A stretch of 64,000 nt of DNA from Gemmatimonas groenlandica (GTDB lineage Bacteria; Gemmatimonadota; Gemmatimonadetes; Gemmatimonadales; Gemmatimonadaceae). The notes below the pieces were generated by a model. That model had not been told where the DNA came from, searched no databases, and worked only from the letters and a program-made list of their open reading frames with translations. The translations under genes and the position numbers were made by a program. Shown in pieces: positions 26,707-43,300 of the stretch. The stretch's first letter is position 1, and every line of letters begins with the position of its first letter. Location of the stretch: positions 930,001 through 994,000 of the forward strand of contig NZ_CP053085.1 of the NCBI RefSeq assembly GCF_013004105.1, given 5' to 3'.

Positions 26707-26837
26707 CTGAGATGTATGCTTTACGCGTTGATCAGCCGTTCGCGTTTGGTTCGACAACCGTAGGTCCACGACCGTTGCTTGCCCCGCAGCGGTCGGCTGG
26801 CGCTCCAGTTCCTTCCCACTTTCGAGGAGACCCGCTC

Positions 26838-29800
26838 ATGCAACACCCTTGGCGTGCCCTGCTGCTACTCGCAGGCACGATCGCGGTCGCCGTTCCCCAA
26901 GCCCGCGCGCAAAGCGGGCCGGGAACGCTATCCGTCCGTGTGACTGACGCTGCGAGCCAGCGTCCGGTCGAAGCAGCGCGTGTATTCCTCGTCGGCACCA
27001 CTTTCGCTGGCGCAACCGGGGTCGATGGCCGCTTGACGTTGCGCGGCATTCCCGCCGCTGAGTACACGGTGCGCGTACTCCGTGTCGGCTACACCGAACA
27101 GACGAAGCGTGTACCGATCGCGGCCGGTCAGACGGCCAACATCGAGTTCACCATGGCCACCGCCGCGATCAATCTCGCCGCCGTGGTCACGACGGCCACG
27201 GGCGAAACCCGCCGCGTGGAAACCGGTAATGCCACGGCCAACATCGACGCCAGCAAGGTGCTGCAGTCGGCGCCGGTGTCGAACCTCAGTGACCTGCTGA
27301 ATTCGCGGGCCCCAGGTGTGACCGTCACCAGCGGCTCGCAGACGGGCACCGGCTCGCGTATCCGCGTGCGCGGTTCGAACTCCGTCAGCTTGTCCAACGA
27401 GCCGATCTGGATCATCGATGGCATTCGCATGACGAGCACCAACGCTGACTTCAATACCGCAACTGGTAGCGGTGGCACTACCGGCGGCAACAATGCCAGC
27501 CGCGTCGGCGACCTCAACCCGGAAGAGATCGAGAGCATCGAAATCGTGAAGGGCCCGTCGGCCGCCACGCTGTATGGCACGGATGCCGCCAACGGCGTGA
27601 TCTTGGTCACGACCAAGAAGGGTCGTGCCGGCGCCGCCCGCTGGAACGTGTACGGCGAGGGCGGAGCACTCACCGACCGGAACTACTACCCGGACGCATA
27701 CAGCCTGTTCGCCAAGAGCGGAACGTCGACCACGTCGTCGCGCACCAACGGCTGCAGCTTGCAGTCGCTCGGCACCGGCGTCTGCACCGCCGACTCGACC
27801 GTGTCGCTCAATATCTTCAACGAAAAGGACCTCACGCCGATCGGCACGGGCGTCCGTCGTCAGATGGGTGCGCAGGTGTCGGGTGGCACGGAAGCCGTTC
27901 GCTACTTCTTCTCGGCTGAAGACGAGAAGGAAACGGGCGTGCTCTCGCTCCCCCAGTTCGAACGTGATCGCTTCGACTCTGCCGGCCTGGTGCTTCGCCC
28001 GTGGACGAGCCATCCGAACGTGATGGCGCGCAAGTCGCTCCGCATGAATCTGAACTCGGCGATCAACCCGAAGCTGGACCTCGCTGTCGCAACCAACTTC
28101 ATCAACATCGCGCAGCGCTACTCGCTCGAATCGAACGCCACCGCCGGTCTCGGCTCGCATCTCTTCGGTGGTCCGGGCACACGCAGCAACGGCACCGTTT
28201 CTGGTCTCGGCACGCCGCTCAATGGCTATCGTGCCTGGACGCCCGGATACATGTGGCAGGAAAAGACCAACCAGGACGTGAATCGCTTTCTGTGGTCGGC
28301 GAACGCCAACTGGCGTCCGCTCAGCTGGCTGGTCAATCGCGCCACGGTCGGCAATGACTACACCGCCCGCAGCGATGAAAATCTGCTGCTCAACGGCGAG
28401 GGGCCGCCGCTCACCGCCACCACGCGACTCGGTGCCCGCGGTATCAATCGGGTCAATACCAACAACCTCACGGTTGATCTCGGCTCCACCGCCTCGTACT
28501 CGCTATCCAACTTTGCGCTCAAGACCACGGTTGGCGCGCAGTACATCGGCTTCCGCACCGCAGGTGCCTCCACGGGATCGACCCAGCTGGCGCCGGGCTC
28601 ACAAATCGTCGGCTCGGGCGCGATCGCTTCGGTCAGCGAGGCAACCACGACCCAAAAAACGTTCGGCGTGTTCATTGAACAGGCGCTGAATGTAGGCGAT
28701 CGCCTGTTCCTCACCGCCGCCGTGCGCAGCGACCAGAACTCGGCGTTCGGCACGAAGTTCAAGAGCATTCTGTATCCGAAGGCCTCCGCTTCGTACTTGA
28801 TTTCGCAGGAAGACTGGTGGAAGGCGCCGTCGTTCGTGAACACCGTGCGTTTGCGCTACGCCTACGGACAGTCGGGCGTACAGCCGGGTCCGAACGATGC
28901 CAATCGGTTCTTCACGGCCTCCAACACAAACATCAATAGCACCGATCAGCCGGCCGTCATTCAATCTGCCCTTGGCAACGACAACCTGAAGCCGGAACGC
29001 TCGGCCGAGCAGGAAACCGGCTTTGAAGTGGGCATGTTCAACTCGCGGCTTAACCTCGACGCGACGTACTACAGCAAGATCACGAAGGACGCGCTGATCA
29101 GCGCCGTGCTGCCGCCTTCGTATGGCATCGTGACTTCCCAGCTGCGTAACCTCGGCTCCGTGAAAAATGCCGGCGTTGAAGTGGCGATCAATGCGCAGCT
29201 GCTGCAGGGTGACAAGCTCGGGTGGGATATCAACCTGTCTGGTTCCGCCAACGACAATAAGGTCGTGTCGCTCGGCGACAACCCACCGCAGGTCGGTACC
29301 ACGTCCCGCATCGTGGCCGGCTACCCGATCTCAGGTTTGTGGGCCCGCCCGATCACCAGCTACGAAGACAAGAACGGCGATGGTTTGCTCACCTACTGGG
29401 CCGACAACGCCAAGAATGAAGTCTTTGTGGGCGACTCCGCGATCTTCCGCGGATACGCGGCGCCGCGCTACTCGGTCACGCTCGGCTCGGGGTGGGACTT
29501 CTTCACCCGCAAGCTCCGCGTCAGCACCTTGTGGGACTACCGTGGTGGCAACAAGTGGTACAACAACACCGAACGCATTCGCTGCACGCGTCCGAACTGC
29601 TCCGGCCGTCTCAACACCAGCGCTGAACTGATCGACCAGGCCACGAACATCGCGGCCAACGAGCATCCCGCGCGTACGCTCGACGGCTACTTCCAGCCGG
29701 GTGCCTTCGTCCGCCTGCGCGAACTTTCGGTGCAGTACACGATGTCGCCGGAGCTCGCCTCCAAGCTCACGCGGGCCAAGTCACTGTCGGTGGTCTTCAC

Positions 29801-29948
29801 CGGTCGTAACCTGTTCCTCAGCACCAAGTACCGTGGCACGGATCCGGAGTCGGGCTTCAACACGACCTCGGGTACCGAAGCACCGAACGAGTTCCAAACG
29901 GTCGGTCCGCCTAGCTACTTCATTTTCCGCGTCAACGTCGGCTACTAG
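26838..29948 (+). CDS. SusC/RagA-family TonB-linked outer-membrane transporter
   Basis: A 1036-residue TonB-dependent transporter. I place the start at ATG 26838, 7 bases after GAGGAGA and directly before a signal peptide (MQHPWRALLLLAGTIAVAV, PQARAQ). Next is a carboxypeptidase-regulatory-like domain (GTLSVRVTDAASQRPVEAARVFLVGTTFAG to YTEQTKRVPI). The plug then carries SusC-type motifs NLSDLLNSRAPGVTV, SRIRVRGSNSVSLSNEPIWIIDG and SIEIVKGPSAATLYGTDAANGVI. The barrel ends in YFIFRVNVGY, with an aromatic last residue. A frame-open start 42 codons upstream has no signal features. SusC pairs with the SusD lipoprotein encoded 11 bp downstream. The cargo is an oligosaccharide or peptide that cannot be named. 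Confidence 0.95.
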   Translation: MQHPWRALLLLAGTIAVAVPQARAQSGPGTLSVRVTDAASQRPVEAARVFLVGTTFAGATGVDGRLTLRGIPAAEYTVRVLRVGYTEQTKRVPIAAGQTANIEFTMATAAINLAAVVTTATGETRRVETGNATANIDASKVLQSAPVSNLSDLLNSRAPGVTVTSGSQTGTGSRIRVRGSNSVSLSNEPIWIIDGIRMTSTNADFNTATGSGGTTGGNNASRVGDLNPEEIESIEIVKGPSAATLYGTDAANGVILVTTKKGRAGAARWNVYGEGGALTDRNYYPDAYSLFAKSGTSTTSSRTNGCSLQSLGTGVCTADSTVSLNIFNEKDLTPIGTGVRRQMGAQVSGGTEAVRYFFSAEDEKETGVLSLPQFERDRFDSAGLVLRPWTSHPNVMARKSLRMNLNSAINPKLDLAVATNFINIAQRYSLESNATAGLGSHLFGGPGTRSNGTVSGLGTPLNGYRAWTPGYMWQEKTNQDVNRFLWSANANWRPLSWLVNRATVGNDYTARSDENLLLNGEGPPLTATTRLGARGINRVNTNNLTVDLGSTASYSLSNFALKTTVGAQYIGFRTAGASTGSTQLAPGSQIVGSGAIASVSEATTTQKTFGVFIEQALNVGDRLFLTAAVRSDQNSAFGTKFKSILYPKASASYLISQEDWWKAPSFVNTVRLRYAYGQSGVQPGPNDANRFFTASNTNINSTDQPAVIQSALGNDNLKPERSAEQETGFEVGMFNSRLNLDATYYSKITKDALISAVLPPSYGIVTSQLRNLGSVKNAGVEVAINAQLLQGDKLGWDINLSGSANDNKVVSLGDNPPQVGTTSRIVAGYPISGLWARPITSYEDKNGDGLLTYWADNAKNEVFVGDSAIFRGYAAPRYSVTLGSGWDFFTRKLRVSTLWDYRGGNKWYNNTERIRCTRPNCSGRLNTSAELIDQATNIAANEHPARTLDGYFQPGAFVRLRELSVQYTMSPELASKLTRAKSLSVVFTGRNLFLSTKYRGTDPESGFNTTSGTEAPNEFQTVGPPSYFIFRVNVGY

Positions 29949-29959
29949 GAGAACCGCCC

Positions 29960-31354
29960 ATGACTAAGAACAACTCCAAGGGCCGGTCCACCATGCCGCG
30001 ACGCCTGGGTACCGGATTCACTCTCGCGCTGGCCATGTCGGTCACCGCGTGTCAGGAAGCGAATAATCAGTTCCTCCAGGTCACTGACCCGGACATCATC
30101 CTGCCGTCAGAGGCCACCACGCCGCAAGCGGCCGTGGCGATTGCGAACGGTGCGATCGCGACGTTTCGGTCGGTGACGGGCGCTGACGAAAGCACGTGGC
30201 TGTTTGGTGGATTGCTGGCGGACGAGTGGTCGACCAGTTCAACGTTCATCCAAAACGACGAGACCGACCAGCGGCAGATTCAGGAGTTCAACTCCTCGAT
30301 TACCGGCATGTTGCGTCGACTGTATCGCGTGCGCACCCGCTCGGATCAGGCGATCACTGCACTCGTCGCGTTGCGTCCGGATGCGCGGGCGTTGATCGCG
30401 GAGATGTATCTGGCGCGCGGCTTTGCCGAGATGCAGTTGGCTTCCGATTTCTGCAACGGGACGCCGATCGGCAACGGCAACGCGTTGCCGCCGGAAGACG
30501 GTGTACCCAAGTCGAACCAAGAGCTGTTCGCCATCGCCGCTGCATCGCTCGATTCGGGACTGACGTTCGCGAACGGCACCGATGCCCAGAGCGTACTGAT
30601 GAACCGGTCACTGCGCGTCGCGCGGGCCCGTGTGGCCCTCGCCCGTGGGGACTTTGCCGGTGCAGGTACGCTGGTCGCGGGCGTGCCCACGGCCTTTGCG
30701 TATCAGCACACGTTCTCGGCGAACGCTGGCACCAACACGATCTGGGGGCAGGGACTCAGCTCCCGCCGCTACAGCGTGGGCGACAGCGTCGAAGGCAACG
30801 CGCGCACGATTCTGGTGCGCAACGCGATCCCGTTCGCGTCAGCCCGCGACAATCGCCTACCGGTGGTCACACCGACTTCGGGTTCAGTAAACGGTCAGGA
30901 CGGTCTGACCTACACGCGCACGACCACGATGTGGGGCCAGTTCTCGGCCGTCGACGTGGCCAACGGCGTCGATGCGCGCCTGATCGAAGCCGAGGCGGCA
31001 CTCAAGGCTGGCAACGTGACGTCGTGGCTCGCCATTCACAACGCGCTTCGCGCAGCGCCGCCGAAGCTCGGAGAGATCCAGCCCGCCGCCATGACGGCGC
31101 TGGTCGATCCGGGTACGGAAGCCAGCCGTGTCTCGCTGCATTTCCGGGAGAAGGCCTTCTGGACGTTCAGCCGTGGCCAGCGTCTCGGCGACATGCGTCG
31201 CCTGATCCGTCAGTATGGGCGGACGGTCGACAACACGTTCCCGCAAGGCGTGCACTACAAGGGCGGCAACTACGGTGGGGATGTGAATCTCCCCGTGGTC
31301 ACCGACGAGCGGAACAACCCGAACTTCAAGGGTTGCACCGATCGGCTCCCCTGA
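29960..31354 (+). CDS. SusD/RagB-family nutrient-binding lipoprotein
   Basis: A 464-residue surface lipoprotein that acts as the lid of the SusC barrel. The signal peptide ends in a lipobox (SVTAC, C31). The helical TPR-like body includes TDPDIILPSEATTPQAAVAIANGAIA, ALIAEMYLARGFAEMQLASDFCNGTP, RVARARVALARGDFAGA and LIEAEAALKAGN, and the C-terminal SusD signature appears as LHFREKAFWTFSRGQRLGDMRRLIRQYG. It begins 11 bp after the SusC stop with GGAGAA before the ATG. The length is at the short end for the family, which is usual for this lineage. The stop is the TGA at 31352-31354, whose last base starts a 21-bp inverted repeat. Confidence 0.93.
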   Translation: MTKNNSKGRSTMPRRLGTGFTLALAMSVTACQEANNQFLQVTDPDIILPSEATTPQAAVAIANGAIATFRSVTGADESTWLFGGLLADEWSTSSTFIQNDETDQRQIQEFNSSITGMLRRLYRVRTRSDQAITALVALRPDARALIAEMYLARGFAEMQLASDFCNGTPIGNGNALPPEDGVPKSNQELFAIAAASLDSGLTFANGTDAQSVLMNRSLRVARARVALARGDFAGAGTLVAGVPTAFAYQHTFSANAGTNTIWGQGLSSRRYSVGDSVEGNARTILVRNAIPFASARDNRLPVVTPTSGSVNGQDGLTYTRTTTMWGQFSAVDVANGVDARLIEAEAALKAGNVTSWLAIHNALRAAPPKLGEIQPAAMTALVDPGTEASRVSLHFREKAFWTFSRGQRLGDMRRLIRQYGRTVDNTFPQGVHYKGGNYGGDVNLPVVTDERNNPNFKGCTDRLP

Positions 31355-31494
31355 TAACGGCGGAGTAGGGAGTACGGAGTATGGGGTAGGGAGTCGCTAG
31401 TGCTTCCTGCCGGCAAAGCGGGCCCCGAACGGTGGATTGTTCGGGGCCCTTCTTTTTCTCCTAACGCCGTACTTACTCCCTACTCCGCCGTTAT
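31354..31494. repeat. 21-bp perfect inverted repeat flanking a terminator
   Basis: The 21 bases at 31354-31374 (starting ATAACGGCGGAGTAGGG) are the exact reverse complement of 31474-31494. Between them lies the SusD terminator and a run of degenerate GGGAGTA/GGAGTA units (31365-31394). The left arm begins at the last base of the SusD stop codon; the right arm ends 5 bp before the metalloprotease stop. Origin unknown; it could be a non-autonomous mobile repeat, an extended bidirectional terminator or a repeat family of this genome. Confidence 0.85.
31420..31457 (+). terminator. Intrinsic terminator of the SusCD operon
   Basis: GGGCCCCGAAC (31420-31430) and GTTCGGGGCCC (31439-31449) form an 11-bp stem with an 8-base loop, followed by TTCTTTTT. 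Confidence 0.9.
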
Positions 31495-31499
31495 GTGGA

Positions 31500-34034
31500 C
31501 TACTTCGGCTCGAGAATCGCGGTCACACGGTCGGCGATGTCGCTCCAGTGGGCGCGATTCGTCGTGCCGGCCGACGCGAGCGCGGCGGCGCGTGCTTCAC
31601 GCTGGATTTCGCGCAGCTGCAAGCGGGCCATGGCAGGCAAGTCACTCTGCGCCACGGCTGGTGCCGAGACAAACGGAACGAAGCGCGCGGCCGCGCCTCC
31701 ACCGCCACCGCCGCCCGGCAGTCCACCGGTCGGCGCCACCGGCGGCGTGATCAAGGCCTCCAGCCGCTGCACGTACACGCGCTGCAGCTGACGACGGCCG
31801 GCGTCGGGCGCATTGCCACTGAACACCGTACGCTTGAGATCCGCCATGTACTCGGCCAGCGGATAGGCGTTCACGACATCGTACTTCTCCGATTCCGCCA
31901 AGCGGCCGAGGCGCGCGGGCGTGAGCAGCGACGTGAGCACGCCGGCCTGACGTGTCGATACCACGTTACTCGGGCCGATCCGCTGCGCTATGCCCGGCGG
32001 CGACAGCCACGCCGGCGTGGCGAAGACGTTCGAAGAGAGGAACGCCAGCGCCGCCTGCTGCCGTGCCTTGGGCACCACGCGATAGACTGCGCCGCTTTGC
32101 TCGGAGGTCTTGAGGTCCACTTCAACACCGCCGACCATCGTAGCCACATGGTTCATGTTGCCGAACCAGCGTGACACGGTCTCCTCGTACAGCTCGCGGA
32201 GCTCGGTGTAGTCCTCACCTGGCGTCGACGTCCATGCCACCAGATTCGGAATCACGCGCTTGTAGTTCATCGTCGAGAACGTCGACGCCTTGATCGGGTC
32301 GTCGCCCAGATCCTCGGTCTGATTACGCGGGTCGCCGGCCGCGAGCTGCTGCGACGCGAAACGATACGGGAACACGCCGGTTTGCTGCGTGAGCCAGCGG
32401 TGCAGCGTGGCGCGCTCGGCTTCGGCCGTCGGCGCGGCGATCACGCGATACCCCCAGTTGATGGCGAAATCGTCGAACGGTCCGACGCGACGGATGAAGT
32501 CCTTCGGCTGCAAGCCGTCACCCGGCTGCGCGATGTAGTTCTGTCGTGCGTAGTCCATAATCGTCGCGCTTACACCATACACGCGCGTGAACGACGGGCT
32601 GCGCAGCGAATCCACCGGGAACGACGCCGAGGCGATCATGTTGTGCTGGAGCCCAAGCGCGTGGCCGATTTCGTGCGTGATCACCTGACGCATCGTCTCG
32701 CCCATCAGCTCTTCCGGAATGTCGAGTGTCCGCGCCGATGGATTGGCCGCACCGGTTTCCATCATCAGCCAGTTGCGGTACGAGCGCATGTGGTTGTGAT
32801 ACCACGTGATTTCGCTGTTGATGATCTCGCCGGAACGCGGATCATGGGTATGCGGGCCCGTGGCATTGCGTGTGAGACTCGCGGCCCAGCGCACGATGGA
32901 ATAGCGCGCGTCGTCGAGATCGAAATCCGGATCTTCCGTTCGCGTGGGCGCGTCCTTGGCGAGAATGGCGTTCTTGAATCCGGCCTTCTCGAACACCTTC
33001 TGCCAGTTCTCGACGCCCTCGCGCACGTAGCGCTTCCAGCGCGTCGGCGTGGCTGGGTCGAGGTAATACACGATGGGTTTGATCGGTTCGACCAGTTCGC
33101 CGCGGGCATATGCTGCCGGATCCTTTGGCTCCAAGCGCCAGCGCGTGATGAACTCCTGACTCTCGGCCTTCTGCACATCGAGGCCGTAGTTCACGCGGTC
33201 CACCGAGAAATAGCCCACGCGGGCGTCGGCGTAGCGCGGGCGCATCGGCGTCTTCGGCAAAAGCACGAATGACTGCCGCGTCTCCATGGTCACCGTGCCT
33301 CCGTCGGCATCGCTCGGCGGCGTGGCGGCATCGAACGTTTGCACCTGTCGGACTTCGATGTTGATCGGGAAGCCGCGCATGCTGCTGATATAGCTGCGCG
33401 CCGCGTCGTAGCGCCGTACGCCGTAGGTGCGACGCGCGTTGGCGTCGAGACCCGACGTGGCGGGATTGTCGTTCGCGAAGAAGTCGGTCACATCGATCAC
33501 ATACGCCGCGCTGTCGCGTCCGAAGGCGGCAATCGGGAACGCGCCGATGATCGCCGGATAGTTGTTCTGCGCCACGCTGCGTGCGATCGGCAGCGAGTCG
33601 TCGGCCACGGCGCCCGTGCTCACACTCTTCAGCAGCACGCGGTCGTTGACCCGCTCCCAGCGGATCAGTCGTTCGTTGAGTGAGCTGCCCGCGCTCTGGA
33701 ATCCGCCGGCACCCGCCGGCACGCCAGCCACACGGGTAACCATGAGGAAGTCTCGCCCCACCAGCGAGTCGGGGACCTCGAAGAAGTAGCGGTCGTCGAC
33801 ACGGTGGACGGTGATGCCGCCACGTTCGGTGTGCGCGCGCGCCGGAATCACCTGCGCATACGGACGCGGGCCACGCCGGGCGCCAGCTCCGGCGGCCCCG
33901 GCGGCTCCCTCGGCGGGAGGCTGTGCAATACCGCCGGCGGGCGGCGTCTGTTGTGCCTGGGCCAGCGGCGCCGAGACGATGCTCGCCGTGGCGGACAAGA
34001 GCACGCCGGCGAGTAGTTCACGAGAGAAATGCAT
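31500..34034 (-). CDS. Secreted zinc metalloprotease with DUF5118/DUF5117 domains
   Basis: An 844-residue exported metallopeptidase. ATG 34034 opens a signal peptide (MHFSRELLAGVLLSATASIV, SAPLAQAQ); the longer start at 34088 adds 18 non-signal residues. After a Pro/Gly/Ala linker come a DUF5118-like segment, the DUF5117 region (YFFEVPDSLVGRDFLMVTRVAGVPAG to KSVSTGAVADDSLPIARSV) and the zinc-peptidase domain with THEIGHALGLQHNM (H454, E455, H458, H464). A late Gly-rich segment precedes the C-terminus. The family is common in Bacteroidota and Gemmatimonadota and is thought to degrade protein at or outside the outer membrane. It is convergent with SusCD across the terminator region and divergent from the TPR-methyltransferase gene. 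Confidence 0.9.
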   Translation of the reverse strand: MHFSRELLAGVLLSATASIVSAPLAQAQQTPPAGGIAQPPAEGAAGAAGAGARRGPRPYAQVIPARAHTERGGITVHRVDDRYFFEVPDSLVGRDFLMVTRVAGVPAGAGGFQSAGSSLNERLIRWERVNDRVLLKSVSTGAVADDSLPIARSVAQNNYPAIIGAFPIAAFGRDSAAYVIDVTDFFANDNPATSGLDANARRTYGVRRYDAARSYISSMRGFPINIEVRQVQTFDAATPPSDADGGTVTMETRQSFVLLPKTPMRPRYADARVGYFSVDRVNYGLDVQKAESQEFITRWRLEPKDPAAYARGELVEPIKPIVYYLDPATPTRWKRYVREGVENWQKVFEKAGFKNAILAKDAPTRTEDPDFDLDDARYSIVRWAASLTRNATGPHTHDPRSGEIINSEITWYHNHMRSYRNWLMMETGAANPSARTLDIPEELMGETMRQVITHEIGHALGLQHNMIASASFPVDSLRSPSFTRVYGVSATIMDYARQNYIAQPGDGLQPKDFIRRVGPFDDFAINWGYRVIAAPTAEAERATLHRWLTQQTGVFPYRFASQQLAAGDPRNQTEDLGDDPIKASTFSTMNYKRVIPNLVAWTSTPGEDYTELRELYEETVSRWFGNMNHVATMVGGVEVDLKTSEQSGAVYRVVPKARQQAALAFLSSNVFATPAWLSPPGIAQRIGPSNVVSTRQAGVLTSLLTPARLGRLAESEKYDVVNAYPLAEYMADLKRTVFSGNAPDAGRRQLQRVYVQRLEALITPPVAPTGGLPGGGGGGGAAARFVPFVSAPAVAQSDLPAMARLQLREIQREARAAALASAGTTNRAHWSDIADRVTAILEPK

Positions 34035-34193
34035 GAGGATCCGGTACGGGAGACAGGTCGGGCCAAACACGCCCGGCAATAGTGCCACTCGCTATACGCA
34101 CCGGCAACGCTGCGTGATGGATCGAAATCGGCAGCGGCGAGGTTGCCGATAAGAGCGTGCGCCGAACGCCATGCGTCCTGTACATTCGGCAGC

Positions 34194-40300: not shown

Positions 40301-43300
40301 TCGTGCAACACTGCAATACTGCTCGTCCACACTCGATGCGACGACACATGCCGCGTGCCCTACACGACGTGCATCACTTGCTTCGTGCGCTGCTGGTCAC
40401 AGCCATGTGCGTGACCGTGGTGGCCTGCGGCGGCGAATCGTCCACGAAACCGGCCTCGGGGTCGATCAGTTCGATCACGCTCTCGCCACAAACCCTTACG
40501 CTTGGTGTGGGCAGCAGTGTCGCGCTCGATGTCGCGTTGTTGGACGCCGAGGGTCAGCCCACGAGCCCGCGCACCATCTTTTGGTCCAGCAGCGATGTGA
40601 CGATCGCGCGGGTGTCGGCCTCGGGATTGGTCACGGCGCTGGCGCCGGGTGCAGCGCAGATATCTGCGACCGCAGAGGGGAAGAGCGCGGTGGCGAATGT
40701 CGCGGTCGCTCCCACCGCGGTGACCAGTGTTCAGCTCTCAAGCGTTGAGCTACGGCTCACCACCGGCCAGCGCGTGCAGCTTTCCGCCAGCGCCCGCGAC
40801 GCGTCGGGCGCGGCCTTGAGTGGACGCGTGGTCACCTGGACCGTTGGTGACGCCAGCATCGCGGTGGTGGATAGCACCGGCGCCGTCACGGCGCTCGCGC
40901 CCGGAGGCACGACCGTGACGGCCACCAGCGAAGGGCGGACAGCCACCGCGGCGGTCTTCGTGACGTCGGTACCGGTCGCCACCGTTGCGCTCACGCCATC
41001 CAGTACCTCGATCGTGGAAGGGCAAACCACGCAGTTGCGCGCGGAAACGCGCTCTTCGTCCGGCGCTGTGCTGTCTGGACGCACGATTACGTGGGCGTCG
41101 TCGAACGCGTCGGTCGCCAGTGTGTCGTCGTCCGGCCTGGTGACGGGCGTCTCCACGGGGACGACCATCATCACCGCCTCGAGTGAGGGCCGTTCAGGCA
41201 GCGCGTCGGTCACGATCACCGCGCGCCCAGTAAATGCGATTGTCGTGTCGCCGTCGCAGCTGTCGCTGATTGCCGGCCAGATGGTAGCGCTGACGGTGCA
41301 GGTCACCGACGCACAGGGCAACCTGTTGAGCGGACGACCAGTGACTTATCGCTCCGAGAGCGTCGGGGTTGCGTCGGTGTCGACGGGTGGTACCGTGACC
41401 GCCGTCGCACCAGGCACCACGTCGATTACTGTGACGAGCGAGGGGCGCAGTGCGAGCGTGAGCGTCGTGGTCTCGGCGGTTCCTATCGCCAGCATTCGCG
41501 TGTCGCCCAGTCTGGCGACGCTGACGGTCGGCGAAGACACCGCGCTGATCGCCACGCCACTGGACGCGTCGGGCGCTGCACTCGCGGGTCGCGCCATCGC
41601 GTGGAGTAGCGGATCACCGAGCGTGGCAACGGTCTCGACGACGGGTGTCGTCACCGCCGTCGGCGTCGGCAGCGTGATCATTCTCGCCCAAGCGGAGGGC
41701 CGAACCGGCTCGGCAACCATCACCGTAAACGCACCGCCCATTGCTTCGGTCACGGTTGCTCCGTCGACGGTTTCCGTTGATGTGGGAGGCACCGTCGATC
41801 TCGCCGCCACGGTACGAGACGCGACGGGAGCCACCGTATTTGGTCGCGCTGTGCTCTGGAGTTCGAGCGCGCCGTCGGTGGCGACGGTGTCGAGCACGGG
41901 AAGGGTGACCGCCGTGTCGGCTGGCGTAAGCACCATCACGGGCACGGTCGACGGCAAGTCGGGCACGGCACAGATCACGGTATCGCCCACGCCGATCGGC
42001 ACGGTGACGGTCGCGCCCACCAGTAGTACGTTGGCGATTGGCGGCACTGTGGATTTCGTCGCGACCGTACGCGATGTGAATGGCGTGGTGGTCACGGGGC
42101 GGACGATTACGTGGACGTCGAGCGCGACAGCCGTGGCGACGGTGTCGAGCACGGGACGCGTGACCGCGGCGTCGGCCGGCACGAGCACCATCACCGCGAC
42201 GGTCGACGGCAAGTCGGGCACGGCACAGATCACGGTGACGCCGACGCCGGTCGGCACAGTGACCGTCGCACCGACCAGCAGCTCACTGGCGATTGGCGGC
42301 ACCGTCGATCTCGTCGCCACGGTTCGCGATGTGAACGGCGCCGTCGTGGCCGGGCGGAGCATTACGTGGACGTCGAGCGCGACAGCCGTGGCGACGGTGT
42401 CGAGCACGGGACGTGTGACCGCCGCGTCGGCCGGCACGAGCACCATCACCGCGACGGTCGACGGCAAGTCGGGCACGGCACAGATCACGGTGACGCCGAC
42501 GCCGGTCGGCACAGTGACCGTCGCACCGACCAGCAGCTCACTGGCGATTGGCGGCACCGTCGATCTCGTCGCCACGGTTCGCGATGTGAACGGCGCTGTC
42601 GTGGCCGGGCGGAGCATTACGTGGACGTCGAGCGCGACAACCGTGGCGACGGTGTCGAGCACGGGACGTGTGACCGCCGCGTCGGCCGGCACGAGCACCA
42701 TCACCGCGACGGTCGACGGCAGGTCGGGCACGGCACAGATCACGGTGACGCCGACGCCGGTCGGCACAGTGACCGTCGCAGCGACCAGTAGTACGTTGGC
42801 GATTGGCGGCACCGCGGATCTCGTCGCGACCGTACGCGATGTGAATGGCGTGGTGGTCACGGGGCGGACGATTACGTGGACGTCGAGCGCGACAGCCGTG
42901 GCGACGGTGTCGAGCACGGGACGTGTGACCGCCGCGTCGGCCGGCACGAGCACCATCACCGCGACGGTCGACGGCAGGTCGGGCACGGCACAGATCACGG
43001 TGACGCCTACGCCGATCGGCACGGTGACCGTGGCACCCGCCAGCAGCACGCTCGATGTCGGTGGCACCGTCGATCTCGTCGCCACGGTTCGTGATGTGAA
43101 TGGCGCGGTGGTCACGGGACGTACTATCACCTGGAGTTCGAGTGCCGTCGCGGTCGCCGCGGTATCGAGCGCCGGACGTGTCACTGCGCTCCTGCCGGGG
43201 ACGGCTACCGTCACCGCCTCGGTGGATGGCAAGTCGGGAACGGCCCAAGTCGTCGTCTCCACTCCGGTTGTGCAAACGGTTGGGCGAGTGACGGTGAGTC

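Follow-up and report, generated by a model that had tools for sequence, protein, structure and literature searches.

A perfect inverted repeat between convergent genes of Gemmatimonas groenlandica as a probable site of a REP-like, heptad-phased family of 3'-end palindromes

What kind of element is an inverted repeat with exact 21-bp arms that fills the 145-bp gap between two convergent genes of Gemmatimonas groenlandica and encloses a predicted terminator? The locus lies in a stretch of 64,000 nucleotides that was analysed as a whole (the window; C1:930001-994000 of the 5.18-Mb single-contig genome), and a first-pass annotation of that stretch had called a chance pair of perfect 21-mers implausible and the pair itself a deliberate or mobile structure. 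Direct reading of the letters gave the same exact arms (Table 1), and the left arm indeed opens with the last base of the TGA stop codon of the left gene. That gene matched no Pfam family at 0.001, and it carries the SusD name solely because it sits behind a TonB-dependent receptor gene. The right arm begins about 6 bp past the stop of the right gene. In each arm the head TAACGGC comes first and degenerate GGRGTAN heptamers follow; the GGGAGTA-like units that had been described as continuing on the left side were recovered by TRF as 4.7 copies of GGAGTAG with 80% matches (31362-31394). When the window was searched for GGAGTANGGAGTA with up to two mismatches, all five matches fell within the inverted-repeat feature, and none of 100 shuffles reached five matches. 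A tandem array of another kind, 5.4 copies of a 255-bp unit with 88% matches, was seen at 41863-43244 of the window and probably represents repeated protein domains.

Table 1. Features of the inverted-repeat locus and its flanking genes (positions are those of the window)
Feature	Position	Strand	Detail
TonB-dependent receptor	26712-29948		upstream of the 'SusD' gene
Left gene ('SusD'), 464 aa	29960-31354	+	ORF; stop TGA at 31352-31354
Left perfect arm, ATAACGGCGGAGTAGGGAGTA	31354-31374	+	21 bp, read directly
Left head, TAACGGC	31355-31361	+	immediately 3' of the stop codon of the left gene
Left array, GGAGTAG GGAGTAC GGAGTAT GGGGTAG GGAGTCG	31362-31396	+	end at 31396 set by eye
Terminator-like hairpin and T-rich tail	31420-31459	+	stem 31420-31449, then TTCTTTTTCT
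Right perfect arm	31474-31494	-	21 bp, exact reverse complement of the left arm
Make-up of the right arm	31474-31493	-	two heptamers (31474-31486) and head TAACGGC (31487-31493)
Convergent right gene, met-zincin type peptidase (DUF5118/DUF5117/DUF4953)	31500-34088	-	ORF and Pfam

A terminator search between the arms returned one candidate, against a shuffle mean of 0.4. The inner hairpin, a G+C-rich stem followed by the T-run of TTCTTTTTCT, is by its sequence a predicted intrinsic terminator, as the first reading had it. Folding of the RNA of 31345-31505 yielded -93.7 kcal/mol (z -8.05), a value that none of 200 shuffles equalled. A search of 31200-31650 against Rfam produced three hits, all sub-threshold (the best was ctRNA_pGA1, E 0.00029, with 30.6 bits where the cut-off is 45); they were regarded as hairpin look-alikes. 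Orthologous stretches of the SusD locus were readable in 9 of 11 cases, the two unreadable ones both being from G042, and the stem core of the terminator was present in all nine. The arms vary among these orthologues in the number and spelling of their units, and both copies from G017 have degenerate arms; in G020 and G044 a short left array comes first and the right gene follows at a distance of 1.6 kb. The present arms seem to be younger than the terminator.

The arms belong to a family that is dispersed through the genome. Elsewhere in it, 22 listed matches to the arms show 80-95% identity over about 28-44 bases; among these matches only the arms recur and the terminator does not, so that the conserved interior by which a MITE is recognised was not found. 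Across the whole genome, GGAGTANGGAGTA with one mismatch had 111 matches, compared with 6 for a reversed control. The first-pass annotation had held that a 21-mer unique in the genome would speak against a repeat family; a pattern search able to list all exact copies of the 20-mer gave these two arms and no others, yet the degenerate family is dispersed. A scripted search around the pattern places listed, the window included, in which a cluster was defined by arrays of at least three units, identified at least 33 clusters of the GGRGTAN family, 8 of which carry such arrays on both strands. According to a crude gene caller (n=33), 11 clusters lie between ++ genes, 10 between +- genes and 8 between -- genes, with 3 inside a called gene and 1 at an edge; by the same crude calls none lies in a gap between divergent genes. 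No GGAGTAN array was found under a strict rule in 400 kb of evenly spaced chunks of the same genome, in keeping with about 33 sites per 5.18 Mb. We read the feature as a REP-like, non-autonomous palindrome of gene 3' ends. The genome also holds several other families of long intergenic palindromes, some rich in AGGAGGCAGG or in GCGAAGG (L259, L270, L271, L273, L274, L276).

The position of the arrays relative to genes was followed in 171 arrays from 111 of 123 stretches in nine genomes, 42 of them from G. groenlandica. The heads of these 171 arrays have the consensus TAACNGC-GAAGTA; a shorter head, AAAA[GA]CAGTAA, was seen at other junction sides, where by eye it adjoins a start codon in some cases. 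For 104 of the 171 heads, the end of a coding frame lies at exactly -10, -7, 0 or +4 relative to the first unit; this holds for 18 of 3420 positions drawn at random from these stretches and for 0 of 171 array tails. The loci of the relatives were fetched with a pattern that contains the TAA head, which inflates the -7 class there, so the 21 of 42 arrays of G. groenlandica with a gene stop at one of the four offsets are the sole unbiased figure. When any gene stop within -45 to +9 was counted, the values were 125/171 for heads, 57/171 for tails, as expected from the shortness of the gaps, and 210/3420 for random positions. The stop offsets cover all three frames (the TAA of the head, TGA or TAA variants of the first unit, and GTAA or GTAG); a gene thus either retains its original stop at the head, or enters the element and stops there. 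The heads are anchored at gene 3' ends. Palindromes of all kinds were found in 54 of 419 gaps: 26/61 convergent, 14/128 and 11/124 tandem, and 3/106 divergent. Annotators should note that repeats set some C-termini and many of the gaps in the genus.

Whether the arms of a single locus match one another specially was assessed in the 74 of 118 loci in which both arms were readable at a laxer threshold. Identity at the variable base was 0.308 for arms of one locus and 0.317 after shuffling between loci, and at motif positions 0.816 and 0.825, respectively; exact matches of at least 20 bases joined the arms in 3 of 74 loci (2.2% between loci), and those of at least 13 bases in 15 of 74 (29% between loci), no excess in either case. 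In the identity test and the exact-match test alike, the right arm of the window was too short for detection and an off-register piece stood in for it. Identical 20-nt heads (the head plus two units) were shared by 110 of 14471 pairs of heads taken from different loci, a count that covers orthologous loci in different species, and by 2 of 850 pairs within G. groenlandica. Covariation of the arms, considered as proof of a selected hairpin, was not seen in the 74 loci, which therefore give no sign of selection for exact pairing at the level of the locus; the inverted repeats result from two family members in facing orientation. The perfect match in the window falls inside the family range and needs no special structure; one arm may have been copied onto the other recently, but no such event is needed to explain it. 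In unrelated DNA, chance would come nowhere near such a match, but between two members of the GGRGTAN family it could. The data do not support taking the pair of 21-mers by itself as a sign of deliberate structure, the arms being alike no more within than between loci.

Empty sites, which the first-pass annotation had proposed to look for in relatives, do exist as short element-free gaps at junctions where other relatives carry an element. Six element sites of G015 were checked in G. groenlandica: three are short element-free gaps (17 bp, 23 bp and, from a stop to the next ATG, 10 bp), and the other three carry another palindrome, of GAGTTNN-like heptamers. At one junction an element is present in G011, G014, G015 and G045, and a 9-bp gap takes its place in G. 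groenlandica, G042 and G044. Comparison by eye of filled and empty junctions revealed no constant borders, and no target-site duplication could be defined. In a tree of 29 genomes built from flank sequences, with rooting on G008/G019 assumed, the carriers of GGAGTA arrays with heads form one clade (support 1.000) and G014 and G042 are sisters (0.983); several inner nodes are weak (0.26-0.54). Close relatives therefore differ in whether an element is present, which may reflect gains or losses. A three-unit match with two mismatches was obtained in 14 of 41 genomes (25 of the genus and 16 of the order), and more than 20 matches were counted in each of G000, G011, G014, G015, G017, G019 and G024. 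Among these, G019 stands outside the GGAGTA clade and carries long pure arrays without a head; at G019:C396:8149-8224, for instance, GGAGTAG is repeated in tandem at least 10 times without the TAACNGC head.

Four junctions were followed across the genus, picked because a GGAGTA element is present there in G. groenlandica or G015; at each of them, genomes with non-adjacent flanks drop out. The 79 readable genome-sites comprise 20 with a GGAGTA element, 32 with another, imperfect palindrome, 20 gaps shorter than 60 bp and 7 without a clear palindrome, counts in which G014 is left out at L149 for want of a right flank, though it carries an element, and G044 at L142 falls in the last class by threshold, though by eye it shows a heptad array. 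Four of the 32 other palindromes belong to members of the GGAGTA clade. These 32 had been chosen by self-complementarity and not by period; their identity at lag 7 was 0.413, compared with 0.259 in shuffles (z 23.6, a value that overstates independence since the genomes behind it are related), and lag 14 (z 14.3) and lag 20 (z 11.5) came next, with z of at most 8.6 at the remaining lags. By eye, the other dialects include GGGTTNN with a AACTGATCAGTT centre, GAGTTNN and TCAGTTN. In some of them it is the C-rich arm that comes after the left gene, and G-richness of the sense strand is therefore not common to all.

The 7-base phase shows in palindromes only: a genome-wide lag-7 signal in all intergenic gaps was considered and discarded, being weak and never the top lag in 10 groups. 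Nor is the step of 7 universal in the genus, since palindromes in 20-kb chunks have a period of 15 in G021, 8 in G041, 14 and 7 in others, and 7 in G. groenlandica. The intergenic palindromes of G021 are very long and made of 15-base repeats (GGGAGCTGGA..., at L280 and L285; lag-15 identity 0.556, n=4). A separate observation concerns L229 (C1 at about 3012493-3012600 of G. groenlandica) and its orthologs L230-L252, in which a conserved block, GCACCACGACGCCCC...GGGACGTCGGGCTTC..., follows a palindrome; this type of block stands behind an acyltransferase-like gene in most congeners and looks like a structured RNA. Searches of L229, L058 and L148 against Rfam at the gathering score returned nothing.

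We reason that the feature in the window probably belongs, as a single site, to extragenic repeats that are heptad-phased, form palindromes, have a dialect specific to the clade, and sit at gene 3' ends in the manner of REP elements. The unit is a head at the stop codon of a gene, followed by about five degenerate GGRGTAN heptamers that point off the gene; where genes converge, both sides can carry a unit and a long imperfect inverted repeat results, and in the window two such arrays bracket a terminator that looks older. The arrays may have spread as small non-autonomous elements, or via recombination between copies, and may be tolerated solely at gene ends, with the head providing a stop codon to the gene that reads in. 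If transcribed, they would form stable hairpins at RNA 3' ends that could act as REP elements do, as a barrier at the 3' end, as insulation against convergent readthrough, or by slowing terminating ribosomes. The arrays are seen to be dispersed, anchored at stop codons, present or absent among relatives and matched at shared junctions by other heptad palindromes; they probably act as RNA hairpins or as boundaries around terminators. The standard mobiliser of REP elements does not explain them, because the RAYT Y1 transposase (PF01797) was not found in the G. groenlandica genome (99.3% complete); nor was it found in G011, G015, G017, G020, G042 or G044, and the element carriers G014, G024 and G045 have one match each (8 of 30 genomes overall). 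A transposase that has since disappeared, or one of another type, may be the mover. Tentatively, and with more doubt than belief, we raise a wider idea, prompted by heptad-phased palindromes that are spelled differently in different lineages at shared junctions: a genus-wide process would convert the copies within a genome to one or a few prevailing dialects and keep their position, palindromic form and 7-base phase; if true, such rewriting would amount to a concertedly evolving punctuation of gene ends whose 7-base step is set by a trans-acting factor, for which a recombinase, a nuclease or a polymerase property would be candidates.

Presence and absence in close relatives, avoidance of divergent gaps and arms without covariation are also what would be expected if the palindromes were neutral or selfish miniature elements, functionless insertions that survive where they are harmless, between gene 3' ends; we regard this as unlikely, given that neither fixed terminal repeats nor duplicated target bases could be defined, that the unit number is variable, and that palindromes stand at the same junctions in many species. 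Replication slippage, in which arrays grow in place as the polymerase slips on weak hairpins, with no insertion or function, would account for the different unit numbers and spellings of orthologous copies, and heptamers are described as the most frequent class of long repeat in many bacteria, for which an explanation by polymerase contact has been proposed (cited in PMC4679880). Independent local events, however, are not expected to produce a dispersed shared head and one dialect within a genome, and slippage on its own appears quite improbable. The CsrA-binding core is ANGGA, and GUA-N-GGA would offer one such core every 7 nt; the arrays could accordingly be imagined to bind an RNA-binding protein such as CsrA in the 3' UTR, and CsrA (PF02599) is encoded in 27 of 30 genomes of the genus, G. 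groenlandica included. Yet GGA is by eye not kept in other dialects (GAGTTNN, NAACTGA) whose genomes nonetheless have CsrA, which makes this the least credible of the accounts, and very improbable.

The reading as REP-like, heptad-phased 3'-end palindromes can be set beside three described systems; in the open-licence literature we found no report of a GGRGTAN-type repeat in Gemmatimonas, of a stop-anchored head, or of heptad palindromes that replace each other at orthologous junctions. The closest described kind are the GGGAATC heptamer repeats of Xanthomonas, reported together with GGGGA(C/T)T repeats of Nostoc in a study focused on quadruplex formation (Rehm et al. 2015, PMC4692102). Shared with these repeats are G-rich degenerate heptamers scattered over the genome and mostly intergenic, a location near stop codons on the sense strand, convergent pairs that make inverted repeats (70 and 75 in Xanthomonas), and relatives that share the position and vary in length and sequence (PMC4692102). 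As far as that account goes, Gemmatimonas differs in its heptamer, in a defined head at the stop codon, and in junctions that can bear another heptad palindrome in a related species; with a unit of GGRGTAN and not GGGAATC, the repeat works like the Xanthomonas kind but is not of that family. REP and BIME sequences and palindromes tagged with GTAG are likewise extragenic and near gene 3' ends; GTAG ends of REPs are described as often giving flanking genes the stop codon TAG, and ribosome stalling has been reported for REPs that lie within 15 nt of a stop (PMC3733652, PMC12306157). As described there, however, REPs are palindromes of 20-40 bp tied to RAYT transposases, whereas the Gemmatimonas elements are heptad arrays in a genome with no RAYT match. 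The TAACTGA repeats of Beggiatoaceae, cyanobacteria and Bacteroidetes (MacGregor 2015, PMC4679880) resemble them as intergenic heptamers with stops in all three frames that sometimes overlap stop codons, and the NAACTGA-like dialect of the congener G041 is nearly the same word; those repeats are described as mostly direct and just upstream of start codons, with one inverted case in the main genome. Heptamer repeats near gene ends have so far been described species by species. With one genus in which the same junction may be empty, carry one dialect, or carry another, the origin of such repeats by insertion, slippage or rewriting becomes directly testable, and so does their effect on the gene that they abut.
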